Source: Symbiodinium natans (Eukaryota > Sar > Dinophyceae > Suessiales > Symbiodiniaceae). From it: 64,000 nucleotides of DNA. The notes beneath the pieces are model-generated. The model had not been told where the DNA came from, made no database searches, and was given only the letters and a program-made list of their open reading frames with translations. Position 1 is the first letter of the stretch. Every line of letters starts with the position of its first letter. Shown piece after piece: positions 37,438 to 53,850 of this stretch. Location: NCBI GenBank assembly GCA_905221605.1, contig CAJNDS010001680.1, positions 197,501 to 261,500 of the forward strand. The letters are read 5' to 3'. Both the position numbers and the translations under genes were made by a program.

Positions 37438-37530
37438 CCCTAAACCCTAAACCCTAAACCCTAAACCCTAAACCCTAAACCCTAAACCCTAACCCTAGAC
37501 CCTAAACCCTAAACCCTAAACCCTAAACAT
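37438..37530 (-). repeat. Telomere-type array, about 12 units with one break
   Basis: CCCTAAA with a CCCTAACCCTAGA interruption near 37,490. Confidence 0.9.
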
Positions 37531-38341
37531 GCACCTTCGCAGGCTTTCGCTGGCCTGCCTCGACAGCGCAGCTCAGGGACCCTGCCAGGGCTGCAGTGTT
37601 CAGGGTTTAGGGTATTAGGTCTGTTTGTCTTCCAAGAGCGTGGAGCCAGCCCCAACATGGCCTCCAAGACCCTCCAAAAGGGGTGGGGCTAGCCTCCAGC
37701 ACCCTCTTCACCAGCCCCAACAGAACCTGAGCAGAACCTACAGGGAGCCAGTGGGGGTTGCGTACATTGATAGTGGTTTATGTTATTCTGTACTCTTTGG
37801 TCAGGGTGTTTCTGACCGCCACGGCTTTTTCAGCAGGCTCCGATTCTTGAGCTCATGCGCAGCATCGGCGCCTATGCTGTGCGCACGCGATGACACTGCA
37901 ACATTCTACAGTTAAATCCGGTATGAGCGAATTCCCCTCTAAGTCTCAGAATGCTTTGGGTTTAGAGTCTCGCTGCTTTGTGTTTAAGTTGGCAGTCCCC
38001 CTCTGCACATGTCAATGGCACACATGCGTAGAGGCGTGCGAAGCTGCGCTGAACATGAAGGCCTTTGCCACATCCTCAAGAAGCATGTCACTTGCAGCAG
38101 CGTGCTGCAAGGGTGCCGCGATACAGAGTAGTCAAAACAATACGGTTTCCTAGAACCCAAATCAGTCCTGAAAATTGAGATATGAGCAATGAAGATGGAG
38201 GAGCTGTCCCTCAAACCTTACAGGGTTTGGTTTAGGGTTTAAGGGTTTAAAAGGGTTTATAAGGGTTTGCAAGGGTCTATAAGGCTTTAGAGGGCTCCTC
38301 ACCCCACCCCCCCCCCCTTCCCCCCCAGCCTTAACGCACCG

Positions 38342-38413
38342 ATGTCGTCTGCACAGTCGCTCACTGTCTTGGGCCTGGACGGCGGCAAGCTACTGGGCCC
38401 CGAAGCTGCCCAG
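38342..38413 (+). CDS. Candidate exon 1, copy A: MSSA...LGLDGGKLLGPEAAQ
   Basis: 24 codons from an ATG, preceded by a C-rich tract. The differences from copy B are three replacement changes plus synonymous ones (for example CTG/CTA, GGC/GGG, CAG/CAA), with no indel over 72 nt. The frame is probably real. The words LGLDGG recall the N-terminal glycine loop of patatin-like lipases, but the expected GGGxRG is absent, so I do not assign that family. The right border is unclear: a family-1 element begins within 15 bases and possible GC donors lie at CAGGGC. Confidence 0.4.
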
Positions 38414-38451
38414 GGCAGTGCAGGCCCTACTTGGAGGTTCATTGTACTTAT

Positions 38452-38590
38452 TAATTAGCCATTAGAATAGGGTTTCCGGGCCAATATTTATAGGTCTCAT
38501 TTCGAAGGGACCATAAACCATTAGAATAGGGTTTTTGGGGGCTATTATAGGTCTTAGTACAAAGGGACCATAAGGGAATATTTATTCAAA
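38452..38590 (+). repeat. Direct tandem duplication of about 67 bp, copy A
   Basis: CCATTAGAATAGGGTTT, ATAGGTCT and AAGGGACCATAA occur twice in the same order. It is not found in copy B. Confidence 0.8.
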
Positions 38591-38613
38591 ATGATTCCGA
38601 CCCCTATATTAGT

Positions 38614-38731
38614 CTACTTGGAGGTTCATGACCGGGTTAGTAGGGTGACTATAGTTATGACTTACCCTAAACCCTAAACCCCAAACCCTAAACCCTAAAC
38701 CCTACTAAAAACTACCTATGAACCTTTAAGT
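38614..38731 (+). mobile_element. Family-1 element with internal telomere array, copy A
   Basis: CTACTTGGAGGTTCATGACC to CTACCTATGAACCTTTAAG. The core carries CCCTAAA/CCCCAAA units. In copy B the corresponding position holds the element at 47,642-47,815. Confidence 0.55.
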
Positions 38732-38832
38732 TTGCAAATAAAATGTGCCTGGGCACTGGGGGTGATCTCTTTTGAAGTTTGAGAGGCACATGTCTGCACA
38801 TAGAAGTTAAGTTCGTGCATGCTTGGTTGCAG

Positions 38833-38880
38833 GTACCCTGAATAGGGCCATACTCTCGTTGTCCAACTTCGGAGACCAAT
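38833..38880 (+). CDS. Candidate exon 2, copy A: TLNRAILSLSNFGDQ
   Basis: It follows the acceptor-like TTGGTTGCAG. The frame (GT) ACC CTG AAT stays open in both copies with replacement changes such as R/G, S/P and N/D and no indel until near the end. The right border is not visible. Support is modest: short length and conservation after an AG. Confidence 0.3.
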
Positions 38881-38924
38881 CCTCAGCCCGTAATTCCCTC
38901 AACCACCCATGCGCCTTCACGCAG

Positions 38925-39017
38925 GCCATCTGAGACGGCGCCTCTTGCAGGGGGTGCTGAAGGAGCTCAACGCAGGGGCAACCGTGCGACTCGTGCACGG
39001 GGGCAAGGACCACAGGG
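38925..39017 (+). CDS. Candidate exon 3, copy A: HLRRRLLQGVLKELNAGATV...
   Basis: A basic, helix-prone block beginning after CCTTCACGCAG. The frame GC CAT CTG AGA CGG is conserved with copy B over 93 nt. Copy B ends in a clear GTGAG donor. In copy A the bases GGTGAGATG are missing, so CACAGGGAAAGG follows directly and no donor is visible. That loss would cause intron retention or exon skipping here. No family is recognised. Confidence 0.45.
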
Positions 39018-39118
39018 AAAGGGCATGGGTTTGGGGCTTGTAGGGTTTTGGGGTATGGGGTTTGTAGGACTTATTACTTGACTTGAACAAGCTGCCTCCT
39101 CCTCTCCTCCTCCCTCAG

Positions 39119-39262
39119 CCCTGCCGCTCATAGCCGCCCTAAACCCTAAACCCGACTGTATGGTGCTCTTGGGTTGTGTAGCCAAGAGCATAAGTCACAA
39201 GCTCCCGAACAATCCGTCGTAGTCCGCTCGCATCCTCCTGGTCCCCGCCTTTTTGGGGTTGC
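39119..39262 (+). pseudogene. Candidate exon 4, copy A, interrupted by telomere repeat and frameshifted
   Basis: It begins after a polypyrimidine tract ending CTCCCTCAG, a good acceptor. Two units of CCCTAAA sit at about 39,137-39,152 inside the block, where copy B reads straight through (GCCGAATGTATGG). Downstream of CMVLLG, single-base indels against copy B bring a TAG into frame. The copy A version therefore looks non-functional. Confidence 0.35.
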
Positions 39263-39470
39263 CGCAGTAAGTATGCCCAGTACATGCTCGAGCTTGTTTC
39301 GCAAAGAGGGCCGCCTTACCATTACTGGACTCACTTTAGTTCAAAGCACTTGATAACCTATGATACAATACTTATAGCTCAGGTAAGGGCTCAACTTCAA
39401 GTGCTGTGGAGGTAGTGGAAAGTAGGGTAACTACAGTTAAGTTATATGATCTTTTTAGTGCACTTGTAAC

Positions 39471-39574
39471 TTGGGATGTTCCCCCTCATGCTGACAGTCC
39501 TTCATAGGGATCATTTTAGGGGGGGTACTATAATCCCCAATAAGGACTGTTGGTATAACGGGGAAGATCCCAAC
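39471..39574 (+). mobile_element. Family-2 element, copy A only
   Basis: TTGGGATGTTCCCCCTCATGC to GGTATAACGGGGAAGATCCCAA. In copy B the matching spot (48,918) carries a family-4 element instead. Confidence 0.75.
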
Positions 39575-39640
39575 TTATAACTCTACTAACCAAGAGCGAC
39601 AACCTCGCCAGAAAACCAACAACAAACAAAACGTACAACG

Positions 39641-39930
39641 CAGCACCAGACATGTTCTACCTGAAGGTGAGTTATATAAGTAGGGTTATAAGTAGCCTAA
39701 GTAAGGTGAAAACACAACACAGCACCAGAAATGTCCGACCTGAAGGTTAGTTATATAAGTAGGGTGCTACGCACCCTAAGTAAGGTTAAAACACAACACA
39801 GCACCAGAAATGTCCGATCTGAAGGTTAGTTATAAGTAGGGTTATAAGTTATAAGTACCCGAAGAAAGGCTATGACACCCTACTTCTCTGACACAGCACC
39901 AGAAATGTCCTACCTGAAGGCTCACGGGTG
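39641..39930 (+). repeat. Tandem expansion of a family-1 left half, copy A only
   Basis: Four units of roughly 76-95 bases, each starting CAGCACCAGA(A/C)ATGT, then CTGAAGGTTAGTTAT, AAGTAGGGT and TAAGTAAGGTTAAAACACAA. Copy B has a single unit. Confidence 0.85.
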
Positions 39931-40035
39931 GTCATGAGTAGGGTTTTCATTACCCTCAGAAAGGTTCAAACCAGTCATAACAAGAGATGCCCTACTTAGA
40001 GCCTCACTAGCAATTACCCATGAACCTCCAAGTAG
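39907..40035 (+). mobile_element. Family-1 element before exon 5a, copy A
   Basis: From GTCCTACCTGAAGGCTCACG to CCATGAACCTCCAAGTAG. It forms the last unit of the 39,641-39,930 tandem series and its only full-length inverted repeat. Confidence 0.55.
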
Positions 40036-40063
40036 ACGCCTTCAAGCAGCCGCGAAATGACAA
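40036..40063 (+). CDS. Candidate exon 5a, copy A: DAFKQPRNDN
   Basis: A small block directly after a family-1 element ending CCTCCAAGTAG, followed at once by a telomere array. The residues DAFKQ.RNDN are shared with copy B. It is too short to support by itself. It is included because it lies exactly between an intron-like element and an array. Confidence 0.3.
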
Positions 40064-40098
40064 CCCTAAACCCTAAACCCTAAACCCTAAACCCTAAA

Positions 40099-40204
40099 CA
40101 TCAAAGAGGAGCTGCTCGACGACGCAGAGCTTCACTCGCTGCCAGCCTCTCATGGGGCCCTTGAGCTTACAGCCGTTGCTCCCCGGCCGCTTCGGAGGAG
40201 GCGG
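40099..40204 (+). CDS. Candidate exon 5b, copy A: EELLDDAELHSLPASHGALEL...
   Basis: It lies between telomere arrays of opposite orientation (40,063-40,098 C-strand; 40,204-40,287 G-strand). The frame is kept against copy B with one three-base indel (CCA, a proline) and substitutions such as L/P, H/Q and H/D. The in-frame indel is good evidence of coding history. The block is acidic. No family is recognised. Confidence 0.45.
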
Positions 40205-40287
40205 TTTAGGGTTTAGGGTTTAGGGTTTAGGGTTTAGGGTTTAGGGTTTAGGGTTTAGGGTTTAGGGTTTAGGGTTTAGGGTTTAGG
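40204..40287 (+). repeat. Telomere-type array, about 12 units, copy A only
   Basis: Follows candidate exon 5b. Copy B has no array here (GACCACTTTGGAAGAGGGCC continues). Confidence 0.95.
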
Positions 40288-40339
40288 GGTCACTTCTACA
40301 AAGTGTTGGGGGGAGGAGATTTTCTTGACAACTATGCAG

Positions 40340-40426
40340 GTTCCATTTTGGAAAATTGCATGGCCCGACATGCTCATACACCACTGGCGGAAGTGTACTA
40401 GAATTCTGACCAAGGGCCCTGATGTT
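40340..40426 (+). CDS. Candidate exon 5c, copy A: ...MLIHHWRKCTRILTKGPDV
   Basis: It follows ACTATGCAG. The C-terminal part of the block is conserved with copy B (MLIHH.RKCT..LTKGPDV), but the first 30 bases differ by a one-base indel, so one copy is frameshifted there. A GTGAGT donor-like word lies downstream near 40,475. Confidence 0.3.
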
Positions 40427-40834
40427 TGAACAACCCCGATGTAAACAGCTCAGCAACAAAAAGCTCACGGGGGTGAGTGGTCCAAGCTCCGGGAACTTCA
40501 TGTTCTGCGAGAATTCTTGAAACTTTTCAGGTTTGCCAGCTCTTCGAACTATTAAGAGAGCGGTCAACTGAAGGATCCCTCGTACAAGTGCTTTATAGTG
40601 CTTTGCACACACATACACACTAACAGTCAGAATGTCATAGTCATCGCAATAGCAAATCTTCGTGCGAATGACAGCATGTCTACATGTAGAGTTTTGGTAT
40701 GTGTATGGCTATTTAATGTTTTTTAGGTCCCCGGGGACAGTCATGGTGGCTTTTGTTCGGCGAAAAGGGCCCTACCATGAGTTGTAATTCGGGCTGGCGG
40801 AGACCATTGCGTATGGGGGGGGGGGGGGGGGGGC

Positions 40835-40995
40835 GTCGCCTTATATATATTATATATATATATATATATAATAATAATAGCAATAATAATAATAATAATA
40901 AATAATAATTAATATATATATATATATATATATACATATGCATATATATATATATATATATTTATTTATTTATTTATATGTTTGCTTATTTATTT
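40835..40995 (+). repeat. TA and AAT microsatellites, copy A
   Basis: Alternating TA, AATAATAAT and TTTATTTA runs, preceded by a run of about 17 G (40,817-40,833). The matching part of copy B is shorter (49,741-49,860). Confidence 0.8.
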
Positions 40996-41226
40996 TTCAT
41001 TTATGGGTATATATATATATATGTGTACCTGTGTGTGTGTGTGTGTGTGTGCGTGTGTGTATGCATGTCTGTACGTACGTGCGTATGTAGGTACGAAATT
41101 ATGTACGTATGTATGTATCCAGGTAGCTGTGCCCACACGTATGTATGCACGTGCGTGCACGTGGATGTATGCGCGCGAGCGGGTGCGCGCTGGTGTAGGT
41201 GGATGCCTTCCGCCCGCCTCCCGCAG

Positions 41227-41346
41227 GTGCGGCCAAGCTTCAAGGCAGAGCTTCAGCAGCTCCAGGCGAGGGCGGAGGAGGTCCAGAGGGGGCGCGAGGA
41301 GCGGGAGGCGGTGGAGGGAGTCGAAGATGAAATGTACCTAGATAAG
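41227..41346 (+). CDS. Exon 6, copy A: 40-codon coiled-coil-like exon
   Basis: Bounded by CCTCCCGCAG on the left and GATAAG/GTTACA on the right. It is exactly 40 codons, starting [19 protein letters not shown] and continuing through charged Arg/Glu-rich residues ([12 protein letters not shown]). The spacing of Leu and Ala among charged residues suggests an alpha-helical coiled coil. Nine of 120 bases differ from copy B and there is no indel. The next 113 bases are a family-1 element beginning GT and ending TAG, so the intron and the element coincide. The upstream intron carries the GT/TATG microsatellite. No family is assigned. Confidence 0.6.
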
Positions 41347-41459
41347 GTTACAAGTACCTAATATAAGGTTAGAAATGTAAACCAGTTCTGATTGTAGTTG
41401 CCATACTCAATCATACTCATGACCCTACTTATAACTACCAGCCATGAACCTTCAAGTAG
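41347..41459 (+). mobile_element. Family-1 element forming the intron after exon 6, copy A
   Basis: 113 bp starting GTTACAAG at the last codon of exon 6 and ending CCATGAACCTTCAAGTAG. The right arm is typical of family 1; the left arm is diverged. Element ends and GT-AG splice ends coincide. Confidence 0.55.
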
Positions 41460-42100
41460 CCGAAGCAGGTATGACTTCAAGTCCCCATGCCTTCCCTTCA
41501 CTTCCGTGTGTACTTGGAGGGACGCATGATAGCGGCTAGTTGTCGTGTAAACGGTACAAGCTGAGTGTTCACATAGTTTGATGGTAGGTTTAGGGTTGGT
41601 ATTGCGTCGATTTAGGGTTGGCACAAGGAGGTGGGCAGCTGCACGGCGAATATCTTCGCGAGCTTGATATTTCGGAGTTGCTTCGAGTGTTCGGGGATTT
41701 GACGTAACTAATCCCTTCCCACGAATATTAACGGGAGCACCCCCCCACGCCAAAGAAAAACCTCGAAAGGGTTTTTGGTATTGGGGGGTTCTTAGTCAAG
41801 CTTGTGGGGGGCGCATCAAGCGTGTGGGTTCTAACGAATCTTTTGAGTTTTAGAGTGAGAGTTATGGGGAACTGAGGGGTTAAGACTTCGGGTTTCAAAT
41901 TGCAGGGCTACTAGTTTAACATGATTCGGTAGACATCTTCGACGGGGCAACTGCCGGACCGGGTTTGGGGCTAGTTCGTTGGTTGTTTGTTTTCGTTTCT
42001 CATCATAACTACTGTACATATTATTAAGGAAAGGGGTTACTCGCACGGTCCTAAAGCCGTGTCCTTTCTGGAGTCGTATTTAGCACCCTGGTAATCCCAG

Positions 42101-42172
42101 GCCAGATGAGGGAGACCACCGAAAGGGATGTGAAAAGTGGAGAGATCCTCTACAAGCCTTGCCGGGGGGTGG
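42101..42172 (+). CDS. Exon 7, copy A: QMRETTERDVKSGEILYKPC
   Basis: Acceptor GGTAATCCCAG, then GC CAG ATG AGG. The frame is kept against copy B with changes E/A, T/A, D/Y, I/L and K/E and no indel. The right end is unclear; it meets a G-rich run, and a GT or GC donor cannot be chosen. The next intron is only about 70 nt and contains telomere repeat. Confidence 0.5.
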
Positions 42173-42240
42173 GGGGGCGTTAGGGGTTTCGGGTATTCAG
42201 GGTTTAGGGTTTCCGTAGATCCCTCAAAGTTCTTTGCCAG

Positions 42241-42327
42241 GCAAAGCGGGCCAAGGAAGCTTCATCAGACGACCTGAGCAAGGATGCAGACTTGAGAGAA
42301 TCCCGGCTCTCCTTGGGGCACGACCTG
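42241..42327 (+). CDS. Exon 8, copy A: AKRAKEASSDDLSKDADLRE...GHDL
   Basis: A clean 29-codon exon between TTTGCCAG and a GTAGCA donor. It is charged and helix-prone. Copy B has the same frame and length once its 135-bp insertion is removed. Together with exon 6 it suggests an extended helical protein. Confidence 0.6.
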
Positions 42328-42816
42328 GTAGCACCCGTGTGTAGAGCTACACATGTATGTAGGAGTTAGGAGACTTTGGGTTTAGGGTTTACGGTTCACG
42401 GTTTAGGGGTTTAGGGGTTTAGGGGTTTACTAGGTTTACTAGGGGTTTAGGGGTTTAGGGTATGTCACGGCATCTCAGTCAGTAGTGCTGAGTTTGCGGG
42501 ACTCTTGGCAGCATCTCGGCAACGCCCTCAGTATTCCGGCAACGCCCTCAGTCCGGCTGCAAAAAGGGTATTTCATGTAAACAATGCATTTCTAATTTCT
42601 AAAGGGAGTATATGGCTCATGCGAAGGGTTTGTTGCGCGCGTAGGGTTTCCATAGGTTTGCTTTCAAAGGCCGCCCAACGTGCAACAACATATGTAATCA
42701 ACGCACCGAAAAGAGCATCAACACAACGCAGTCCCACGAAGTCCTTCGTTGGCCTTTGCCTCTGTTTGGCGCCTTTGTTGATCCAGATCTTCGAAATCGC
42801 CCCCCTCCCGCCTTAG

Positions 42817-43110
42817 GAGTACCAAGCTGCTTTCAATGATCTGGTCTTCTGGATTGCCGAGGACGCCCTAAACTACACCAAACCCCAAACCCTCCTAAAC
42901 CCCAAACCCCAAACCCCAAACCCCAAACCCTAAACCCTAAACCCTAAACCCTAAACCCTAAACCGCTAAACCCTAAACCCGAGAGGACGCCCAGACTCAG
43001 TGCAAGAGGGCCGCCAGCCAGGGAAGGGCTGAGATGGTCTTCGACTTCCAAGACGTCTCGTATCGCTTCGGTGCGCACCTGGGCTTGAGACTTCGGAAGT
43101 GGTTAGAACG
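42817..43110 (+). CDS. Exon 9, copy A: EYQAAFNDLVFWIAEDA / telomere array / QTQCKRAASQG...
   Basis: It starts after the acceptor CCGCCTTAG. 17 codons run to GAGGACGCC (42,859-42,867), then 115 bases of telomere-type repeat, then GAGGACGCC again (42,983-42,991) and a long open stretch with AEMVFDFQDVSYRF, ending at a GTATGG donor-like word. The frame is continuous if one GAGGACGCC and the array are removed. Either the array is a spliced intron whose borders fall in the direct repeat (GAG/GACGCC would give a GA-AG intron) or it is a disruptive insertion. Confidence 0.55.
42868..42982 (-). repeat. Telomere-type array inside exon 9, copy A
   Basis: Starts CTAAACTACACCAAACCCC, passes through four CCCCAAA and then CCCTAAA units. 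Flanked by GAGGACGCCC on both sides. Confidence 0.9.
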
Positions 43111-43118
43111 GTATGGGT

Positions 43119-43199
43119 TATTTAGGGTTTAGGGTTTAGGGTTTAGGGTTTAGGGTTTAGGGTTTAGGGTTTAGGGTTTAGGGTTTAGGGTTTAGGGTT
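43119..43199 (+). repeat. Telomere-type array, about 11 units, copy A
   Basis: Lies 10 bases past the GTATGG donor-like word of exon 9. Copy B has one diverged array and an AT-rich stretch instead. Confidence 0.95.
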
Positions 43200-43230
43200 A
43201 AAGTTCCTGGTAGCTTCGAAAGTAATGCCT

Positions 43231-43377
43231 TGGGATGTTCCCCCCTCCCCCCCCCTAGCAGTCCTAAAAAGAATAACTAGCGGGGGGGGGGGGGGGGGGG
43301 GGGGCGGGGGGGTACTAGAATCCCTATTAAGGGCTGTTAGTATAAGGGGTATATTATAAGGTCCCAAGTAATGTCCA
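43231..43377 (+). mobile_element. Family-2 element with long poly-G core, copy A
   Basis: TGGGATGTTCCCCCCTCCCC to the right arm CTATTAAGGGCTGTTAGTATAAG...TCCCAA. The loop holds a run of more than 20 G. The orthologous element in copy B (52,755-52,852) has no such run. Confidence 0.7.
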
Positions 43378-44603
43378 ACACGGAGGGGTTCAGGGTTTAG
43401 GGTTGAAGGCCCTGTTTTCCAAATGTATATACTGGATAAGATACTTATTGCCCTAAACCCTAAACCCTAAACCCTAAACCCCTAAACCCCTAAACCCTAA
43501 ACCCTAAAGCCATATCACTGCCGCACGGTCATCTTTGAGGCCTGCTGGGCTTCGAAGACCCCGAGATCCTGTTGGTTTAGCGCACGTGCCATAGGGTTTA
43601 GGGTTTAGGGTTTAGGGTTTAGGGTTTAGGGTTTAGGGTTTGGGGGTTAGGGTTTAGGGGTTTTAGGACTTGGGAGGTCTATGCTACCAGCCCTACGCGT
43701 CACGGCGACCCCAAAATACCTGCCGCTTGATGTAATGGATGGGGTGGAAACCACAAACATGGCAGCCAATCGGTACCAAATTATCATCTTGTGATAGCTC
43801 AGCTCTTACGGCAGCCCTTTGGGTGACAATCGCGATCAGGACCTATTCTTCGCAAGGAATTAGTGATCTCAGGACTTCATGTCATCCGATATGACCTTTT
43901 AAGGGATTTGGGGGGGGCGGGGGGGTAAGGTGCAAGAACTAGTAAACCAAGAGGCTTGGCTCCAAGCTGGCTGGCCCCAACCAACTCAGTCTCGCCTCCG
44001 ACGCGGTGCTGCGCGGCTGGTACTTTTCTCTTGTTCCTTGGCCCCTCGTTGTTTCAGAAGAGTCTTGCAAAACTGGCCCGGAACAAGCAAGACACCTGAA
44101 CTTGAGCGAGTTTCGGCGAACTTGGCTTGTATAATCCGTTCTTTCATTGGCACTGTGCCACTTTGGCTGTTGTGCTGTCAGGTTCTGGGTCCACAAGCTT
44201 AGGGTTTGGGGTTGAGCGCCTAGGGTTCAGGGTCTAGGGTTTAGGGGTAATGTTGACCTCAAACTGATAAACCCCCCCTCAATTGAGAAACCCCCAAGCC
44301 CAGAACTCAAATATAAACCCTAAACCCTAAACCCTAAACCCTAAACCCTAAACAACCCCCCCCCCCCCCTCAATCAAGGAACCCCGGCCCGATTTCCTTT
44401 TCTGTGGGCCCTTTTGGGTAGGTCAGGGTTTAGGGTTGAGGGTTTAGGGTTTAGGGTTTAGGGTTGAGGGTTTTTGGGTTTAGGGTTTGGGGGCGGCTCA
44501 GGACAGCCCGACCCCCCCCCCCCCCCCCGCTTAAATAGGGGGTCGAGGCGGAAACAAACAAAACTAATTGCGACCGGGGGGGGGGGGGGTTAATTCGAGG
44601 TCA

Positions 44604-44690
44604 ACATTCTACTGACAGTCCTTAAAAGGGGTTATAGCACCCCCCGATTATAATCCCCATGAAGGGCTGTGAGTTTAAGGGGACATCCCA
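44604..44690 (+). mobile_element. Family-2 element, truncated left end
   Basis: ACATTCTACTGACAGTCCTT to GTGAGTTTAAGGGGACATCCCAA; preceded by a poly-G tract. Confidence 0.55.
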
Positions 44691-44798
44691 ATATGAGATC
44701 TGCAGGTAAGCACAGCACTAAGCCCTAAACCCTAAACCCTAAACCCTGAACCCTGAACCCTAAACCCTAAACCCTAAACCCTACATATATCTTGACAG

Positions 44799-44826
44799 CA
44801 TCCCCAACCTTTTGAAACGCCCAAAG
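44799..44826 (+). CDS. Exon 10, copy A: micro-exon IPNLLKRPK
   Basis: 28 nt between TCTTGACAG and GTACTGGAGG. The frame joins exactly to exon 11 (RPK-HEAIRAKSS) when the family-1 element between them is removed. The same length and borders occur in copy B. Confidence 0.45.
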
Positions 44827-45005
44827 GTACTGGAGGTTCATAGGGTTTCGGGTTTAGGGTTTAGGGTTTAGGGTTTCGGGCTACTTGGAGGTTCATGGGT
44901 AGTTCTAAGTAGGGCTATAAGTAGGGTAACAGGAACTGTACTTGGTTCTACCCGTATTCAGGGTAGTTATATCCCCACTTCTAGCTACCCCTGACCTTCA
45001 AGTAG
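44827..45005 (+). mobile_element. Family-1 element(s) forming the exon 10/11 intron, copy A
   Basis: It begins GTACTGGAGGTTCATAGG and ends GACCTTCAAGTAG. It contains a telomere array (44,846-44,880) and a second family-1 left arm (CTACTTGGAGGTTCATGG), so it looks like a nested or duplicated element. GT...AG ends fit a spliced intron of 179 bp. Confidence 0.6.
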
Positions 45006-45324
45006 CATGAGGCCATCCGTGCCAAAAGCTCTGCGAAACCGCAAAGCATAGCGAAGAAGCTGAAGATGATAGCTTGTGCTTGGTGTGGTGTGTGCTGTTC
45101 TCCGTTTCATCGCGAGGGGGGCTTGGCACAGATTTTCTGCAACAATTAGGGTTTAGGGTTTAGGTTTTAAGATGGATAGCCTTGCCATTGGCCTGTCCAC
45201 TGTCCCGCCTGAGGTCCAGCCCGACGCGACGGAAGCCCCCAGCCATGCGTCTCCCAACCGCTTGCAATTCTTCGCAAGCATCCAACGTGTGCTAGTGGAC
45301 CGCCTGAGACTACGCCAGAATTGA
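45006..45324 (+). CDS. Exon 11 (terminal), copy A: HEAIRAKSSAKPQS...VDRLRLRQN stop
   Basis: It begins right after a family-1 element ending TCAAGTAG. The first part carries a Cys-rich word (CAWCGVCC). About 24 bases of telomere-like repeat lie at 45,146-45,169, where copy B has only AAAG. The last part starts at ATG 45,172 (MDSLAIGLSTVPPEV) and ends QFFASIQRVLVDRLRLRQN with TGA at 45,322-45,324. Removing the array joins both parts in one frame. The shared stop and the drop in constraint afterwards mark the gene end. The Cys cluster hints at metal binding but is too small to call. Confidence 0.5.
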
Positions 45325-46990
45325 GCTTTACTCTATTATTGCTTTCTGAGTGTAAAAATTCTTCGTCCAGGGGAACCATGGACTTTGCTCGTGTTCAAAC
45401 CGGCTTGCAGCAACCCAGTCGGGCCTGATAAAGTGCGGTTCATCATACATATACCTGTACGTAGACATTAGGGCTTAGGGTTTTAGGGTTTAGGCCCTAA
45501 ACCCTCAACCCTAAACCCTAAACCCCTCAACCCTATGTATCACGGCGTACAGGCAACACATGGCTTAGGTCGGTAAAGCCCAGTGCCACGTAACGCCGGT
45601 TACCTGGGCATGGTCACTTGTCTCGGTTTCTACTATTTGCTTTAGAACCCACCCCCCCCAAAAAAAAAAACAAAAAGCAAAAAAATGATAATAATAATAA
45701 TACTAAATAATAAATAAATAAAACAATATAAAAAAGAAACTACCCTTATAAGGAAGACTTCTTTTTTTTGGGGGGGGGGGCTCTTAAGCTATTCGTAGGT
45801 TTCGGGTTTCGGGCTCAGGATTGGTGCTGCCGGTTCATCTTCGCAGCCAAAGTAAACCCCAAAGCCCAAACCCCCAAACCCGCTTAAGACCTCCAACCTA
45901 AACCCCTAAGCCCTCAACCACCCATAACCCCAAGCCCTAAACCCTAAGCCCCAAAACCCGGCCCCAGGAGAGATCTGGATTTGGATGTGGTGACGCAGAG
46001 ATGCTGCCATCACCTTACTCTCTCGTGGAAGGATGCTCAGGAGGGTGCTGATCCATCACAACCATAATGCCCCCGCCCCTTTTGCCCCGAAGCCCTAAAC
46101 ACCCATGGAGGGGCACCTTACACCCACCCTAAACCCTGGCAGTTGACAGGAAGAACTGGACGAAGAGCCTTAGCCCGAATCGAATATACCATGTGCCTTG
46201 CGAAGTGGAGTTCAGAGGCAAAAGAATACCCGAAACCGTAAACCCTAACCCCCCCCCAAAAAAAAGCCCTAAGCAGGCATCTTAGCAGCCTTAAAGTGTG
46301 TCAGGACAGCGGTCCAAGCTCAGCCCAGAGCTAATGGAGACTAGGACTAGGATAAAGGGCATCAAACTCGGCTGACACACCCTAAACCCTAAACCCCATG
46401 CCCAAAAAGCACTCAACCCTAAACGGCCCTAAACCATTTTCCGGGTTTACTTGGAGCGGTGCCTGGGTTACTGCTGAGCTTTAAGGTTTCTTGACAGGCT
46501 CGGTAGGCGCTAGGGACATCTCTAATTCCCCCCTTATTTGGGTTTAAGCCGCTCATGTGCTAGGGTTTAGGGTTTAGGGTTTAGGGTGTTTGGGTTTAAG
46601 AGGGGAATATGTTTCAGAGGGGTTTAAGGGCCATCCTAGAAGGGTGTTCTGGGGTCCTTAACGGGGGTTTCAGGGCTTGGGTTGAAGGTTTTTCGTCACA
46701 CATATGACCCTAGACCCTAAACCCTAAACCCTACTGTATACCCTATAAACCCTAAACTTAGTCCAAAGACCTCCAAACCCTAAACCCTAAACCCTAAACC
46801 CCAAGAGCAGGGAGACTCCTGGCTCAAGATTCCCTGTGAGCTGCTGACTGCTGGCCCTGGGACCTGGCGGTCGGAAGCACGAAAACGGGACCTGCATGGT
46901 TTTAGGGTTTAGGGTTTAGGGCTTAGGGCTTAGGGTTTAGGGTTTAGGGTTTATGGTTTAGGGCTCGGGGTTCGGCATCTCATGTTCTGG
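45325..46990 (+). other. Downstream flank of copy A gene
   Basis: After the terminal TGA, copies A and B still align for about 150 bases (GAGTGTAAA.ATTCTT, then CATACATATACCTGTACGTA), compatible with a 3' untranslated region. A family-3 element follows in copy A only, then telomere arrays. Further shared stretches lie near 45,960-46,140 and 46,800-46,980. No polyadenylation signal can be named with confidence. Confidence 0.4.
45627..45799 (+). mobile_element. Family-3 element, copy A only
   Basis: CTACTATTTGCTTTAGAACC to GGCTCTTAAGCTATTCGTAG. A core of poly-C, poly-A and A/T microsatellite. Copy B reads TCTCGGTGTGGGGGTTTCGGG without it near 54,415. Confidence 0.7.
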
Positions 46991-47551
46991 CTTTTGGTAA
47001 GGGTGTTTCTGGACGTCCCGCTCCCCCGGCAGAGGCCCCGATTCTTGCGCTCATGCGGAACATAGGCGCCTGTGTCGCGCGCGCAATGAAGTTGCAATAT
47101 TCTCCACTTAAATCCGACATGCGTGAATCCCCCTATGAGTCTTAGAATACTTTGGGTTTAGGCGGTTTAGAGTTTCGCTGCTTTCGCAATCCCCCTCTCC
47201 ACATGTCAGCATCGCACATGCGTAGAGGCATACTAAGTTGCGCTGAGCCTGAAAGCCATTGCCACATGTGCGCTCAAGCATGTCACTTGCAGCAGTGCGC
47301 TGCGAGGGTGCCGTGATACAGAGAAGTGAAAAGAATACTTTTTCCTGGAGCCCAAATCAGTCCTGGGCTGGGGCTGTCTGCTACAACGCACTTCTTCTCT
47401 CTCACACTCTCTCACCACAGGCCCAGGCCCCTCAAAACCTTACAGGGTTTGGTTTACGGTGTAAGGGGTTTAGAGGTTTACTTGCTTGGGGGACCCTAAA
47501 CCCTAAACCCTTAACCCTTAACCCCTCTTTCTCCCCGGCCTTGAAGCACCG

Positions 47552-47623
47552 ATGTCGTCTGCACCGGCGCTCAATGTCTTGGGCCTGGACGGCGGCAAGC
47601 TACTAGGGCCCGAAGCTGCCCAA
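47552..47623 (+). CDS. Candidate exon 1, copy B
   Basis: The paralogue of the copy A block, with ATG at the same place and the frame kept for 24 codons (MSSAPALNVLGLDGGKLL...). It is followed by a family-1-like element whose left part reads GTCTCCTTGTTGGAGG and whose right part ends GCAAGCAG near 47,815. GT and AG could serve as the intron ends. The start assignment rests only on the conserved ATG. Confidence 0.4.
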
Positions 47624-47641
47624 GGCAGTGCAGGCCCTCGT

Positions 47642-47815
47642 CTCCTTGTTGGAGGTTCAGGGTCGGGTCGAAGTAGGGCAACTGTAGCTATAACTTTATA
47701 CCTTATGCTTTAGGGGCCCGGACCTATAGAGCCTGAACTCTGAACCCTAAACCCTAGGCCCTGAAACAGGCCCGAAACCCTACTGATACCTACCCCAGGA
47801 ACCTGCAAGCAGTCT
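47642..47815 (+). mobile_element. Family-1 element after exon 1, copy B
   Basis: TTGTTGGAGGTTCAGGGTCG to ACCCCAGGAACCTGCAAGCAG, with diverged telomere units in the core. Confidence 0.5.
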
Positions 47816-47972
47816 GTCAACCAGAGGTTGCATCTTTGGGGCCCATTTTAGGGTTTAGGGTTTAGGGTTTCGGGTTTGCCAGTAAAATGTGCCTGGCAGT
47901 TGGGGTGTCTCTCTTTTGAAGCTTGTGAGGCAGATGTCTGCACGGGCAACGTTCATGTATAGGTGGCTGCAG

Positions 47973-48020
47973 GTACCCTGAATGGGGTCATACTCCCATT
48001 GTCCGACTTCGGAGGCAAAA
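47973..48020 (+). CDS. Candidate exon 2, copy B: TLNGVILPLSDFGGK
   Basis: The same block after GGTGGCTGCAG. It continues into an A-rich stretch and then a family-3 element (48,058-48,155) that copy A lacks. The right border is uncertain. Confidence 0.3.
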
Positions 48021-48057
48021 AGCAACCCTCAATCCTGAGCTCTTAAGTCCCTAGACC

Positions 48058-48155
48058 TTGCTTAAGAACCCCGAACAAATAAACAGATTCTTCCTGATTA
48101 AGGGCAATATAGGGATTATCATGTTTTTATTCTTTTGGGGTTCTTAAGCAAATAG
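48058..48155 (+). mobile_element. Family-3 element, copy B only
   Basis: CTTGCTTAAGAACCCCGAAC to GGGGTTCTTAAGCAAATAGTAG, inserted just before the exon 3 acceptor; absent at the matching site in copy A near 38,895. Confidence 0.75.
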
Positions 48156-48179
48156 TAGCTTGCATGAGCCTTCACGCAG

Positions 48180-48272
48180 GCCAGCTGAGACGGCGCCTCT
48201 TGCAGGGGGCGCTGAAGGAGCTCAGCGCAGGGGCAACCGTGCGACTCGTCAACGGGGGCAAGGACCAAGGGG
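48180..48272 (+). CDS. Candidate exon 3, copy B: QLRRRLLQGALKELSAGATV...
   Basis: Bounded by TTCACGCAG on the left and GGTGAGAT on the right, giving an AG-GT bounded exon of 93 nt. The residues RRRLLQG.LKEL.AGATVRLV are kept from copy A. A family-3 palindromic element ends (AATAGTAG) only about 20 bases upstream, and copy A lacks it. Confidence 0.5.
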
Positions 48273-48504
48273 GTGAGATGGAAAGGGCGTGCGGTTGGGG
48301 TTTGGGGCTTGTAGGGTTTTGGGATTATGGGGTAACGGCCGGTTATAGGCCTTATATGGTTATTAACGGGCTTTAGCATTTTTCATGTTTACGGATTTCC
48401 CTGCCTTGAACAAGCCACCTCCTCCCCCCCCCTCCTCCTCCTCCTCCTCAGCCCTGCCGCTCTAAGCCCTAAACCCTAAACCCTAATCTCCCCTCCTCCC
48501 TCAG

Positions 48505-48622
48505 CCCTGCCGCTCATCGCCGAATGTATGGTGCTCTTGGGTCGCGTAGCCAGGAGCATAGGCACAAGCTCCGAACAATGCTTCGTACTCCGCTCGCATC
48601 CTCCGGGTCCCCGCCTTTTTGG
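48505..48622 (+). CDS. Candidate exon 4, copy B: ...PLIAECMVLLGRVARSIG...
   Basis: It starts after CCTCCCTCAG and stays open to the telomere array at 48,623. The acceptor and first bases are present twice: a 16-base direct repeat (CTCAGCCCTGCCGCTC) at 48,447-48,462 and 48,500-48,515, with a short telomere array between the repeats. Two frames are open across the block, and the one giving CMVLLGRVARSIG is preferred because copy A keeps its beginning. Confidence 0.4.
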
Positions 48623-48917
48623 GGTTTAGGGTTTAGGGTTTAGGGTTACCGTTGTACCAGCAGCTGCTTTTTCTGGCATTCCCCACCCAGCCCAGATGTG
48701 TTAGGGTGAGGGAATGGAAATATCGGGTGCCGCGGTAAGTATGCGCAGTACATGCTCGAGTTTCGTTTCAAAAAGAGGGACCCCCCTTACCGCTACTCCA
48801 CTCACTTTTTTTAAATCATATTACTGATAACTCAGGTACGGGCTCAACTTATAGGGCTGGAGATAGTGAAAAGTAGGGTGACAAGTGGGATAGCTACAGT
48901 TATGTGATTTTGGGGGT

Positions 48918-49022
48918 CTTAGTAGCTGAGTGAGCACACTTTGCACTTTTGGGGATACTCTAATCCCTTCTTTATCACTGAAAGAGTACACTTTTGTGGG
49001 GCTTATGAACTCAGCAACTAAG
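48918..49022 (+). mobile_element. Family-4 element, copy B only
   Basis: CTTAGTAGCTGAGTGAGCAC to GGGCTTATGAACTCAGCAACTAAG. It occupies the place where copy A has a family-2 element. Confidence 0.7.
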
Positions 49023-49127
49023 CCGTACTTAGAACCCTACTAACCAAGAGCGACAAGCTCGACTCCTTGAGGAAAACCTCGCCGAGAACACCAACAACAA
49101 ACAAAACCACGACACATCACCCAACAT

Positions 49128-49243
49128 GTCCTACTTGAAGGTTCACGGACCGTTATAAGTAGAGTTACAAGTGCCCTAAGTGAGGTAGGTTATAACACCC
49201 TACTTGTAACCCCACTTGTAACTACCCGTGAACCTCCAAGTAG
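49128..49243 (+). mobile_element. Family-1 element before exon 5a, copy B
   Basis: GTCCTACTTGAAGGTTCACGG to CCGTGAACCTCCAAGTAG, with inner arms TATAAGTAGAGTTACAAGT and ACTTGTAACCCCACTTGTAA. GT and AG are again available at the ends. It is a single unit, without the tandem expansion of copy A. Confidence 0.6.
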
Positions 49244-49271
49244 ACGCCTTCAAGCAGCTGCGAAACGACAA
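49244..49271 (+). CDS. Candidate exon 5a, copy B: DAFKQLRNDN
   Basis: The counterpart of the copy A block, between the family-1 element (49,128-49,243) and a three-unit telomere array. Its flanks AGCTGC...ACGAC recur at the far side of the array in the next block, a loose direct repeat that may be chance. Confidence 0.3.
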
Positions 49272-49293
49272 CCCTAAACCCTAAACCCTAAAC

Positions 49294-49377
49294 ATCACAA
49301 AGGAGCTGCCCGACGACGCAGAGCTTCAATCGCTGGCCTCTGATGGGGCCCTTGAGCTTACAGCCGTTGCTCCTTGA
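49294..49377 (+). CDS. Candidate exon 5b, copy B: KELPDDAELQSLASDGALEL...
   Basis: The frame matches copy A, with the proline codon missing, and ends in TGA at 49,375-49,377 where copy A continues (CCC CGG CCG). The stop may lie in the following intron or mark decay. Confidence 0.45.
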   Translation: MTKELPDDAELQSLASDGALELTAVAP

Positions 49378-49443
49378 CCACTTTGGAAGAGGGCCACTTC
49401 TGCAAAGTTTTGGGAGGACGGAATTTCCATGACAACTGTGCAG

Positions 49444-49538
49444 GTTCCATTCTGAAATTTGTATGGGCCCATATGCTCATACACCACAAGCGGAAGTGTA
49501 CTAAGATGCTGACCAAGGGCCCTGATGTTGCACGACCC
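49444..49538 (+). CDS. Candidate exon 5c, copy B: ...MLIHHKRKCTKMLTKGPDVARP
   Basis: It follows CTGTGCAG and is open to a TAA at 49,539. A GTAAGA donor-like word lies downstream near 49,573, matching GTGAGT in copy A. The first bases are out of frame relative to copy A. Confidence 0.3.
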
Positions 49539-49869
49539 TAAAGTGACCAGCTCAGCAAGAGAGCTCGCGGGGGTAAGAGGTCCAAGCTCCGAGAACGGAA
49601 CATTTCAGGTTTGCCAGCTACTAACAGTCATAATTTCATAGTCCCTAGACAGTCATAGTGGCTTATTCGGCTAGTAGGACCCTACCGGAAGTTGTAATTC
49701 GGGCTGGCGGAGACCATGTCGTATGGGGCCTCGCCTTACACAAAAAAAACATATATATATATATGTATCGATATATACACAATACATATGTATGTATATG
49801 GAAACATGAATATAAAGGAATATACATAGACATACATATATATATATGTATATACATGTATATGTGCCA

Positions 49870-49985
49870 GTGTGTGTGTGTGTGCGTATGTATGTATGTA
49901 TGTATGTATGTATGTATGTATGTATGTATGTATGTATGTATGTATGTATGTATGTATGTATGTATGTATGTATGTGTGTATGTAC
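49870..49985 (+). repeat. TATG microsatellite, about 24 units, in the intron before exon 6, copy B
   Basis: A GTGTGT run passes into TATG units. Copy A has only a degenerate version (41,030-41,130). Both lie upstream of the exon 6 acceptor. Confidence 0.85.
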
Positions 49986-50056
49986 ATAGGTAGCTAGGCC
50001 CATGTGTATGTAGGCACGTGTGTGCATGTGGGATGCCTTCCGCCCGCCTCCCGCAG

Positions 50057-50176
50057 GTGCGGCCAAGCTTCAAGGCAGAGCTTCAGCAGCTCTGCGCGAG
50101 GGCGGAGGAGGTGCAGAGGGGGCGCGAGGAGCGGGAGGCGGTGGAGGGAGTCGAAGTTGAAAAGTTCCTAGGCAAG
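50057..50176 (+). CDS. Exon 6, copy B
   Basis: Same borders (CCTCCCGCAG / GGCAAG-GTTACA) and same 120-nt length as copy A, ending EGVEVEKFLGK. The differences cluster at the end (D/V, M/K, Y/F, D/G) and at LQA/LCA. It is followed by a 98-bp GT...TAG family-1 element (50,177-50,274). Confidence 0.6.
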
Positions 50177-50274
50177 GTTACAAGTACCTAAAGAAGGTTA
50201 GAAATGCTAACCAGTTCGGATTGTAGCTGCCATACTTATAACCCTACTTGTCACTACCATGGACCTTCAAGTAG
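50177..50274 (+). mobile_element. Family-1 element forming the intron after exon 6, copy B
   Basis: 98 bp, GTTACAAG to GGACCTTCAAGTAG, at the same site as in copy A. It was therefore present before the duplication. Confidence 0.55.
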
Positions 50275-50908
50275 CCGAAGCAAGTATGACTTCAAGTCCC
50301 CGTGCCTTCCCTCCACTTGCGTGTGTATTTGGAGCTCCGCATGACACCGGCTAGTTGTCGTGTAAACGCTATAAGCTGAGAAGCACCCCCCATGCCAAAA
50401 AAGCACCTCGAAAAGGTTTTTGGTATTAGGAGAGGGGGGGGGGGGGGGGAAAGGGGGTTCTTATTGTCCAAACAAACAGCCCGTCCTTGTTCAGGGTTTA
50501 GGGGTAGGGTTTAGGGCTTAGGTTGTGAAGGTTCCAGGGACTTGAAGCCTCGGGGGTTGAAGGAGGCTCAGAAGAGCTTGAGTGTTGAGGGTTTAAGGCT
50601 TGAGGTTGTCAAGGTTCTGGGGGGGCATCAAGCACTTGGGTTCTAATGGATCTTGTGAGTTTAAGGGTGAGAGTTGAAGGGTGAGAGTTAGGGCTGAGGG
50701 GTTAAGACTTCAGGTTTCAAATCGTAGCGCTACTAGTTTCAGGATTCGGTAGAGATTTTGAACGGGGCAACTGCTGGACTGGGCTTTGGGGCCAGGTTTT
50801 TTTTCTCCAAATAATAGGGGCATATTAATGGTAGGGGGGAGGGGTTACTCGCACTGGTTCTTAAAGCGTGTCCTTTCTGGGGTAAAGGGTTTTTGGCACC
50901 CTGGTAAT

Positions 50909-51088
50909 CCCACTTGGAGGTTCATAGCACTTATTAACCAATCATAACTGTACTTATAGCCCACTGAAAAGCCCCCTAGGTGCCGTCATATGGTTGTAAG
51001 CACAGTTATAAGTACTTCACCCTTTACCCCTAAACCCTAAACCCTAAACAGCTATAATTGGTTAGTAAGTGCCATGAACCTCCAAGCT
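50909..51088 (+). mobile_element. Family-1 element inserted at the exon 7 acceptor, copy B only
   Basis: ACTTGGAGGTTCATAGC to GCCATGAACCTCCAAGCT, with a telomere array inside (51,028-51,050). Copy A has the uninterrupted site TAATCCCAGGCCAGATG at 42,092, giving a filled/empty pair. Confidence 0.75.
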
Positions 51089-51152
51089 GGCCAGATGAGG
51101 GCGACCGCCGAAAGGTATGTGAAAAGCGGGGAGCTCCTCTACGAGCCTTGCA
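51089..51152 (+). CDS. Exon 7, copy B, acceptor replaced by an element end
   Basis: The same frame as copy A (QMRATAERYVKSGELLYEPC). The natural acceptor CCCAG is destroyed: a family-1 element (50,909-51,088) sits between CCC and GGCCAG. The element's right end reads CCTCCAAGCT, so CCAAG could act as a substitute acceptor. Confidence 0.45.
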
Positions 51153-51281
51153 GGGGGGGGGTTTAGGGTTTAGGCTTTAGGGTTTAGGGTTCAGGGTTTA
51201 GGGCTAGAGTTTAGGGTTTAGGGCAAGAGTTTTGGGTTTCGGGGTTAGGGTTTCCGCGGATCCCTCAAAGTTTGGTGCCAG

Positions 51282-51503
51282 GCAAAGCGGGCCAAGGGAG
51301 CCCCACCACATGCGCTGAGCAAGGATGCAGACCTGAGAGAATCCGGGCTCTCCTTAGGGTTTAGGGTTTAGGGGTACTGTACTTTTGCTTAAGAACCCCC
51401 CCCCGCCAAAAGATACGCAATAATAATCCCTATATTACCCTCATAGGGAAGAATATTGTTTGGGGGGATTTCTTAAGCAAACAGCAGCTTGGGACACGAC
51501 CTG
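51282..51503 (+). pseudogene. Exon 8, copy B, split by a 135-bp insertion
   Basis: The first part (51,282-51,355) ends TCTCCTT. A 135-bp insertion made of telomere units plus a family-3 palindrome follows to 51,490. The exon then resumes GGGACACGACCTG with the GTAGCA donor. CTT is present on both sides of the insertion and once in copy A, as in a short target duplication. Without splicing, the telomere units put stops in all frames. Confidence 0.6.
51356..51490 (+). mobile_element. Telomere units plus family-3 element inserted in exon 8, copy B only
   Basis: AGGGTTTAGGGTTTAGGGG, then TACTTTTGCTTAAGAACCC, an AT-rich core and GATTTCTTAAGCAAACAGCAG. CTT flanks both sides. It shows a telomere tract and a palindromic element entering as one unit, or one after the other. 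Confidence 0.75.
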
Positions 51504-51857
51504 GTAGCATCCATGTGCAGAGTTACACATCATGTAGGGTTTAGGGCAGACGGGTTAGGGGTTTAGGGCTTAGGGTATTTCATGTAAACAACGCATGTCT
51601 AAGTTCTAAAGGGAGTAGATGGCTCATGCGAAGGGTTTGTTGACGCGCAAGGCGCGCGCGTGCTGTTTCCATAGATTTGCTTTCAGCCAAAGGCCGCCCA
51701 ACGTGCAACAACATGTGTAACCAACGCCCCGACGCGAGCATCAACACAACGCCGTAGCATGAAATCCTTCGTTGGCCTGTGCCTCTGTTTGGAGCCTTTG
51801 TTGATCCAGATCTTCGAAATCGCCCCCCCCCCCCCCCCCCCATCATTCCCTCCTAAG

Positions 51858-52068
51858 GAGTACCAAGCTGCTTTCAATGATCTGGTCTTGTGGATTGCCG
51901 AGGACGCCTTAAACCCTAAACTCTGAACCCTAAACCCTAAACCCTAAACCCTAGAGGACGCCCAGAATCAGTGCAAGAGGGCCGCCACCCAGGGAAGGGC
52001 TGAGATGATCTTCGACTTCCAAGACATCTCGTATCGGCACACGCGCCTAGGCTTGAGACTTCGGAACA
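51858..52068 (+). CDS. Exon 9, copy B, same telomere array between direct repeats
   Basis: EYQAAFNDLVLWIAEDA, then 45 bases of telomere repeat between GAGGACGCC copies at 51,900-51,908 and 51,954-51,962, then the downstream part (QNQCKRAATQGRAEMIFDF...). It differs from copy A by an in-frame three-base indel (RFGAHL versus RHTRL). The array insertion is therefore older than the duplication and its length has since changed. Confidence 0.55.
51909..51953 (-). repeat. Telomere-type array inside exon 9, copy B
   Basis: 45 bases, mostly CCCTAAA, flanked by GAGGACGCC on both sides. Confidence 0.9.
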
Positions 52069-52079
52069 GTATGGATGTT

Positions 52080-52640
52080 TATTTTATTTTGTTTAGGGCT
52101 TAGGGTTTGGGGTTTAGGGTTTAGTTTCTTTCATGTTGTTTAGTGTATGTTTCGGGTATGTTTTGCATTTCTGATAGAGATATGATACGAACTAGCTGTT
52201 ATCGGACTATGAAATTTGGAAAAATCATGTGTGTACATTTTTTGCAAAAATAGATGCGCTATGAAAACCTTATGTTTTTTTTCCATGTTAGTAGGGAAAA
52301 CCAACCACTTGAAATTACAATGATATGGTACGAGCTAACTATGACATCTCTATGTAAGCCAGGGCGACCTTGCCGAAAATGAAACACGTATTTCCTCGTA
52401 GAAAAATATTAAGTGGTTTCCAGGACCCCATTTCCAGGTTCATAAATAGCCAACCATATTGAAACCATATTCGAACCACGAACAAACTAGTTCCTTTAAA
52501 CATTTATTGACCAACACCTCAAGTCGCAAACCTAGGCCAAGCCCGATTCTGACATCAACGCCCTAAAGAACCACCAAACACAAAAGATAACAATCCCTAG
52601 ATTTCCCTTTTAAGGAATTTATGTTTCGATCCCCTTCTTA
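52080..52640 (+). other. AT-rich stretch present only in copy B
   Basis: Between the exon 9 donor and the family-2 element, copy B has about 550 bases of AT-rich sequence with few repeats, whereas copy A has the 11-unit telomere array. It ends in a family-3 right arm (CTTCTTAAGCAAATCGTAG). I see no open frame or palindrome in it. Confidence 0.6.
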
Positions 52641-52754
52641 AGCAAATCGTAGCAATGCGAGTGTGAGCATCGAAACCGGGTGGCTTCTGTCGTACCTTGG
52701 AAGGTCCAAGTTCCAATGCGCGCCAAAGTTCCTGGTAGCTTCGAAACTAATGTC

Positions 52755-52852
52755 TTGGGATGCTCCCCCACTAACAGTCCTTAATAGGGATGATTATAGG
52801 GGGTGCTATAATCCCTATAAAGGGCTGCTAGTATAACGGGGGACGTCCCAAC
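52755..52852 (+). mobile_element. Family-2 element, copy B
   Basis: TTGGGATGCTCCCCCACTAAC to AGTATAACGGGGGACGTCCCAA. It shares its site with 43,231-43,377, so the insertion predates the duplication. Confidence 0.7.
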
Positions 52853-53701
52853 TAACATCCAACACGAAGGGGTTTCGAGTTTTGGGTTTAGGGCTGAAGG
52901 TCCTGTTTTCCAAATGATACTGGATAGGATACTATTGCCCTATATATAAACCCATGTCGCTGCATGGGCATCATTGGGGCCTCACAGAGTAGCTGAGTAT
53001 TTAGGCCGAAATCGTTTTGGTTTAATGCACGCCCCATGGAGACAGGACTTGGCAAGTCGATGTTACCAACCCTACTCGTCACGGTGCCCCCAAAGTACCT
53101 GCCGTTTGATGTAATGGATGGGATGGAAACCACAAAAAATGGCAGCCAATCGGTACCAGGTACTATCTTGTGATAGCTCAGCTCCTACAGCAGCCCTTTG
53201 GGTGACAATCGAGACCAGGACCTATTCTCAGCAAGGAATTCGTGAGCCAAGGACTTCATATCCTCCGATATGACCTTTTAAGCCATTGGGGGGGATAAGG
53301 TGCAAGAACTAGTACACCAAGAGGCTTGGTTCCAAGCTGGCTGGCCACAAGCAGCTCAGTCTCGCCTCTGACGCGGTGCTGCGCGGCTGGTACTTTTCTC
53401 TTGTTCCTTGGCCCGTTGTTGTTTTAAGAGCGGATTCCAAATCTGGCCGGAATAAGCAAGACACCTAAACTTGAGCGAGTTTCGGCGAACTTGGCTTGAA
53501 TGCTGCGTTTTTCCCTCTTTTGGCACTGTCCCACTATGGCTGTTGTGCTCTCAGGTTCTGGGTCCACAAGCTGTCCTGTTGCAGCGGTTTAGGGTTAGGC
53601 TGGCTTTAGGCTTTGGGGCTTAGGGTTTCGAGTTCGGATCCGGCTGAGCCTGGAGTCAAAAAAAAGGGTTAAGGGGTAATTAGATATGCAGGCAAGTACA
53701 G

Positions 53702-53729
53702 CATCCTCGCCATGGCGAAACGCCCAATG
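53702..53729 (+). CDS. Exon 10, copy B: micro-exon ILAMAKRPM
   Basis: 28 nt between AAGTACAG and GTACTTGGAGG, in frame with exon 11 across the family-1 element at 53,730-53,850. KRP is kept from copy A. Confidence 0.45.
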
Positions 53730-53850
53730 GTACTTGGAGGTTTCATAGTTCTAAGTATAGCAGTAGGGCAACTGGAACTATACTTCGTTCTACCCTTATT
53801 CAGGGTACTTAGAGAACCCCACTTATAGCTACCCCTGAACCTTCAGGTAG
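53730..53850 (+). mobile_element. Family-1 element forming the exon 10/11 intron, copy B
   Basis: 121 bp, GTACTTGGAGGTTTCATAG to AACCTTCAGGTAG. Without the extra array of copy A, this is the simplest example of an element whose two inverted-repeat ends are the splice sites. Confidence 0.65.

Follow-up and report, generated by a model that had tools for sequence, protein, structure and literature searches.

The locus and its telomeric arrays

The window, that is the whole 64 kb stretch of Symbiodinium natans DNA that was analysed, is heavily loaded with telomeric repeats. It contains 5,224 telomeric 7-mers where shuffled sequence contains 54 on average (about 96 times as many), and loose merging of these repeats gives 376 arrays (185 of CCCTAAA and 191 of TTTAGGG orientation) which occupy 15.4% of the bases; under a stricter definition there are 227 arrays. 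A telomere motif of this type fits dinoflagellates and plants. Other repetitive features of the window are a G-rich run of 133 bases at 13906-14038 and a GGCGCGGAG satellite of 500 bases at 14720-15239, which is open in several frames. Searches of the window with Rfam (gathering scores) and for tRNA genes returned none, and a relic of the dinoflagellate spliced leader was absent at up to 3 mismatches.

The central part of the window is a tandem duplication of roughly 9 kb, the two units of which are called here copy A and copy B (Table 1). When they are compared in 123 windows of 60 aligned columns each, 71 show an identity of at least 0.75, with a mean of 0.86 among those 71. Since A and B are tandem paralogs, an array found in one copy can be checked for an empty site in the other.

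One CCCTAAA-type array, present at a common position in both copies, is the subject of this report. In copy A the 9-mer GAGGACGCC is found at 42859-42867 and again at 42983-42991 (period 124, with the 9-mers separated by 115 bases), and the direct repeat is exact over 10 bases, GAGGACGCCC being GAGGACGCC plus C; the tenth base of the left repeat is at the same time the first C of the array. The counterpart in copy B carries GAGGACGCC at 51900-51908 and 51954-51962 (period 54, 45 bases between), exact over 9 bases. A preliminary description of this DNA had reported a telomere array between direct repeats of 9-10 bases in both copies, and the arrangement was confirmed letter for letter, coordinates and array lengths included. 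Because the array and the repeat are shared by both copies, the arrays in A and B are a single event. The site is filled in both of them and a third copy is absent from the window. In a self-comparison of the window (most telomeric runs masked, E 1e-8) the array segment matches its tandem copy alone.

Table 1. Features of the tandem duplication, of the studied site and of neighbouring arrays that are missing from one copy (a slash marks a possible splice border)
Feature	Positions	Strand	Remarks
Tandem copy A	37796..46897	+	tandem duplication with copy B
Tandem copy B	46993..55018	+	tandem duplication with copy A
Putative interrupted exon, copy A	42817..43110	+	pyrimidine tract and TTAG/G before, G/GTATGG after
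Left direct repeat GAGGACGCC(C), copy A	42859..42868	+	exact 10-base repeat, register 124
CCCTAAA-type array with CCCCAAA variants, copy A	42868..42982	+	115 bases
Right direct repeat, copy A	42983..42992	+	exact 10-base repeat
Putative interrupted exon, copy B	51858..52068	+	TAAG/G before, GTATGG after
Left direct repeat, copy B	51900..51908	+	exact 9-base repeat, register 54
CCCTAAA-type array, copy B	51909..51953	+	45 bases
Right direct repeat, copy B	51954..51962	+	exact 9-base repeat
TTTAGGG array in A between TAC(T)TGGAGGTTCAT repeats	44841..44876	+	B with single TACTTGGAGGTTTCAT, no array
CCCTAAA array in B between two repeats of CTCAGCCCTGCCGCTC type, about 21-23 bases	48467..48486	+	A with one copy, no array
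CCCTAAA array in A between ACAGCA repeats, filler on each side	44723..44783	+	B with single ACAGCA; overlap 6
TTTAGGG array in A	40203..40288	+	missing from B; no clear flanking repeat
TTTAGGG array in A	45146..45167	+	missing from B; no clear flanking repeat
Short CCCTAAA array in A	39137..39153	+	missing at B counterpart; about 3 bases repeated; by eye only

Flanking repeats and empty sites

Similarity between the two flanks of an array was scored by local alignment for the 227 arrays and compared with 40 permuted sets, in which left and right flanks were taken from different arrays of the same orientation; such controls may pair A flanks with B flanks of one array and are thus conservative. 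A score of at least 8.8 was reached by 7 of the 227 arrays (permuted mean 0.475, maximum 2) and a score of at least 7 by 11 (permuted mean 1.475, maximum 5). The score of the studied array in copy B was matched by 0.2% of 9,008 control pairs (P 0.002) and that in copy A, 7.45, by 0.4% of them (P 0.004), both values being per array, before correction for 227 arrays. Among the seven arrays scoring at least 8.8, those at 55198 and 36493 resemble minisatellite units and those at 27644 and 44841 contain the end of a miniature inverted-repeat transposable element (MITE), while the remainder lie at 343, 48467 and 51910, the last being the studied array in copy B. Because minisatellite-like arrays and those with a MITE end make up four of the seven, and because A and B represent one event, the raw count overstates the excess that comes from true target duplication, and a long flanking repeat is absent from most arrays. 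In a plain exact-repeat test, which is weaker than the local-alignment test, repeats of at least 9 bases were noticed at 3 of 211 arrays (control mean 0.45, maximum 2) and of at least 10 bases at none of the 211. An earlier run of the local-alignment test had used 6 control sets instead of the final 40.

Some further arrays with related flanks were observed. A TTTAGGG array at 2830-2854 is placed between 9-base ATACAAGGG repeats with AGGG in register with the array, and its local-alignment P of 0.019 is modest. A second array is common to A and B, with 38 bases at 40062-40099 and 24 bases at 49270-49293; the B member shows an imperfect flank similarity of 18 bases, AAGCAGCTGCGAAACGAC against AAGGAGCTGCCCGACGAC (score 7.1, P 0.005), which is missing from the A member (score 1.95, P 0.68).

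In the duplication 49 arrays were examined, and both flanks could be aligned to the sister copy for 17 of them and not for 32. A clean empty site in the sister copy was found for five arrays, four in A (40203, 44723, 44841 and 45146) and one in B (48467), and at three of these five there is a flanking duplication, of 6, 12-15 and about 21-23 bases. The flanks of the array at 44841 overlap in B by 12 bases (TACTTGGAGGTTCAT), or by up to 15 if one indel is allowed; for 48467 the overlap is 28 according to the aligner and about 21-23 by eye. In 8 of the 17 rows the sister copy also has an array at the corresponding position or close to it (the pairs 40062/49270 and 42866/51910, and also 38664, 39137, 42199 and 51535), and among these 39137 is counted in this way by the alignment, its absence from B being a judgement by eye. 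The array at 47154 is a weak empty-site case because A also carries GGGTTTAG, and three rows were set aside: 45926 (mis-mapped, gap -163), 43386 (degenerate repeats in B, gap 26) and 54426 (another insert in A, gap 238). At 48622-48647 copy B carries an array and additional DNA that A lacks; it was uncounted since its right flank is unaligned. Three of the five empty-site arrays have duplicated flanks, which point to insertion, although telling gain from loss needs an outgroup. The earlier proposal of an array inserted as a unit, with duplication of its target, gains support here, both from the neighbouring empty sites, some of which have duplicated flanks, and from the excess of flanking repeats over permuted pairs.

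As an alternative, a short CCCTAAA seed (GCCCTAAAC) could have been lengthened into the array by slippage, or once GAGGACGCC had been duplicated in tandem, and a telomere-filled break would then not be needed. The large difference in array length between A and B does indicate that growth or shrinkage occurs, and the left junction in copy A is indeed GCCCTAAAC, in register with the array; however, at nearby sites the copies differ by entire arrays, accompanied by flank duplications of various lengths, and the 96-fold load of telomeric 7-mers calls for a telomere-specific source, which makes growth from a seed very doubtful. Even less credit can be given to the view that a DNA transposon or an introner-like element with a fixed target duplication has the array as its core, although a 9-base repeat also surrounds the array at 2830-2854 and MITE-like elements are common in the window, one of them containing an array (about 50913-51086). 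The GAGGACGCC pair encloses array-type bases only, a terminal inverted repeat is absent, and the duplications at the empty-site arrays vary from none to about 23 bases, which fits breaks and not a transposase; such a mobile element is most improbable here.

The element just mentioned, at 50913-51086, has the inverted ends CTTGGAGGTTCAT...ATGAACCTCCAAG, carries a CCCTAAA array and is missing from copy A at 42099/42100; other members of its family are found about ten times in the window. An exact match to one MITE end was absent from viral and prokaryote contigs. Another observation concerns 44706-44798, where copy A alone has CAG/GTAAGC, a CCCTAAA array and TTGACAG/ in succession, resembling a GT-AG intron with a telomeric body, and the counterpart in copy B reads ATGCAGGCAAGTACAGCATCC and lacks the array. 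This is not a clean intron gain because the spliced and the empty forms differ by 10 bases.

The interrupted segment as a putative exon

In the preliminary description the array was said to interrupt an exon. The claim stands as far as the reading frame is concerned, which is continuous once the array and one repeat are removed and gives an open run of 63 codons in each copy. The exon itself is unconfirmed: 35% of the positions of the + strand are within open runs of at least 63 codons, so that a continuous frame is weak evidence for an exon. Read-through of the array meets stop codons in both copies.

Identity between A and B over 42803-43052 is 0.95, 0.93 and 0.95 in successive alignment windows, the 0.93 window including array columns. 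The putative exon is thus among the most similar parts of the duplication and not at the top, since 0.97 is reached at 42743-42802 and 0.95 also at 44983-45042 and 46075-46134. The two exon pieces are 92% identical (151/164) and the upstream stretch 42567-42812 is 91% identical (223/246). In the frame proposed earlier, the right-hand piece differs between the copies by 9 non-synonymous and 2 synonymous changes (4/4/3 over the codon positions), that is with a pN/pS of 1.23 and without an excess at third positions, and the left-hand piece by 1 non-synonymous and 0 synonymous changes. The putative exon lengths, 170 and 157, differ by 13 and are frame-incompatible with the donor chosen, and several other conserved blocks of the locus contain indels which are not divisible by three.

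Searches for relatives were negative. For a string of 340 residues made of putative copy A exon translations, none of 6,679 candidates reached an E value of 10 or better; for the joined peptide of 61 residues there were 0 candidates sharing three words, and in viral contigs 5 stretches fit a pattern, of which 0 encode a relative. Pfam gave 0 matches to translations of the window with stops written as X, on the + strand in all frames (except 37503-37599 and 47202-50000) and on the - strand in all frames of 1-45000 and two of the three frames of 50001-64000 (45003-50000 left out). The exon is putative and unproven.

If the array and one repeat formed a GA-AG intron (GAG/GACGCC...GAGAG/GACGCC), with AG/GA lying in the duplicated target, the spliceosome would restore the frame. 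When all registers along the repeat in which the segment could be removed are considered (11 in A and 10 in B), 0 give GT-AG borders, 0 give GC-AG borders and one gives GA-AG in both copies. The AG/GA register is present in the repeat of both copies, both have a pyrimidine-rich tract with YAG/G just upstream and GTATGG downstream, and unspliced arrays would introduce stops in each; GC-AG and GA-AG intron borders make up 25-74% in Symbiodiniaceae, as given in the review PMC11453091. Simple decay would predict neither splice-like borders nor a local identity that ranks among the highest in the duplication. Such an intron, however, needs a coding segment, and the pN/pS value without third-position excess, the 13-base difference between the exon lengths, the indels not divisible by three in other blocks and the failure of Pfam and of the searches made for relatives speak against one. 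Moreover AGG[ACT], which the border needs, occurs in 8.3% of 100,000 random 10-mers of the window. The telomere-repeat GA-AG intron is a weakly supported candidate, and it is considered unlikely that the array is spliced in this manner.

Probable telomeric break filling and related systems

The reading preferred here, with a probability of about 0.68, is that an interstitial telomeric insertion was made at a staggered break before the duplication of the locus, telomerase being the simplest agent, and that the arrays changed in length independently afterwards. Insertion at the studied site itself is suggested by analogy with the neighbouring arrays. A double-strand break staggered by about 9-10 bases may have occurred at GAGGACGCC(C) before the 9 kb duplication, telomeric repeats would have been added to it, most simply by telomerase extending the minus-strand 3' end (...GGGCGTCCTC, then TAGGGTTTAGGG in B), the far end would have been joined via shared CCC/GGG, and fill-in of the stagger would have left the direct repeat. 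Following the duplication the arrays would have diverged to their present 115 and 45 bases, and the segment around them would now be a decayed or non-coding copy, not a spliced exon.

Read on the minus strand, the right flank ...GGGCGTCCTC leads into TAGGGTTTAGGG in B or TCGGGTTTAGGG in A; the end CCTC is continued by T(A/C)GGG, which is not clearly in register, a telomerase RNA sequence was not recognised at the junction, and the far end in A shares CCC/GGG with the target. Capture of telomeric fragments is as compatible with the studied array as addition by telomerase. An empty form of the studied site was seen in neither copy, and two of the five empty-site arrays (40203 and 45146) are without a duplication; both points count against insertion.

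Events of this kind are already known. In mammals, interstitial telomeric repeats were inserted in one step during break repair, and telomerase was implicated by in-register bases and fragments of telomerase RNA, as described in PMC2246262 and PMC7215372. A target duplication was given for 6 of 130 rodent and 4 of 25 primate loci in PMC2246262 and for 3 of 66 horse loci in PMC7215372. The short interstitial telomeric sequences described there resemble the present case in having an internal array, an empty related locus (here for neighbouring arrays) and a target duplication in a minority of loci. In contrast to them, the unit here is the seven-base TTTAGGG, it makes up about 15% of the bases in 64 kb, and the comparison is between tandem paralogs instead of orthologs; the array also lies in a possible exon, whereas among the human loci listed in PMC7215372 none is in an exon. 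In the dinoflagellate Karenia brevis interstitial telomere signals were seen by in situ hybridisation, according to a figure legend in PMC6395649. What is more unusual in the present locus is the density of arrays and the availability of empty sites in a tandem copy.

Roy et al. in 2023 reportedly dealt with the introners of dinoflagellates and Amoebophrya. As described in PMC7789003 and PMC11453091, introners of these organisms share with the studied array an inserted unit, direct repeats at the borders and possible non-GT borders. Unlike them the array has neither terminal inverted repeats nor a common non-telomeric sequence, and its splicing is putative; terminal inverted repeats, a shared non-telomeric core and a fixed duplication length, by which introners and MITEs are recognised, were missing, the first two at the array and the last across the empty-site arrays. 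A telomere-repeat intron was not found in the literature searched, and since most subscription papers were outside that search its absence from print is unproven.

Break repair and the tandem duplication of AGGT-type sites are further routes of intron gain. The studied site has in common with these routes a direct repeat with an AG/G site around a new segment, and differs from them in that the filler is telomeric and the splicing putative. It might be supposed that telomeric filling of breaks makes introns in this lineage, where a staggered cut at AG/G would duplicate the site, the array would become the body of the intron and the duplicated AG/GA its borders, and the upkeep of chromosome ends would thereby contribute to intron gain; this extension of the preferred reading is quite unlikely. 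Should even some genic arrays be spliced, new introns would arise from a known source and with a target duplication that can still be seen, which would offer a testable case for the question of intron origin. With arrays forming about 15% of the locus, some of them in only one tandem copy, this lineage is well suited to watching telomeric DNA in break repair.
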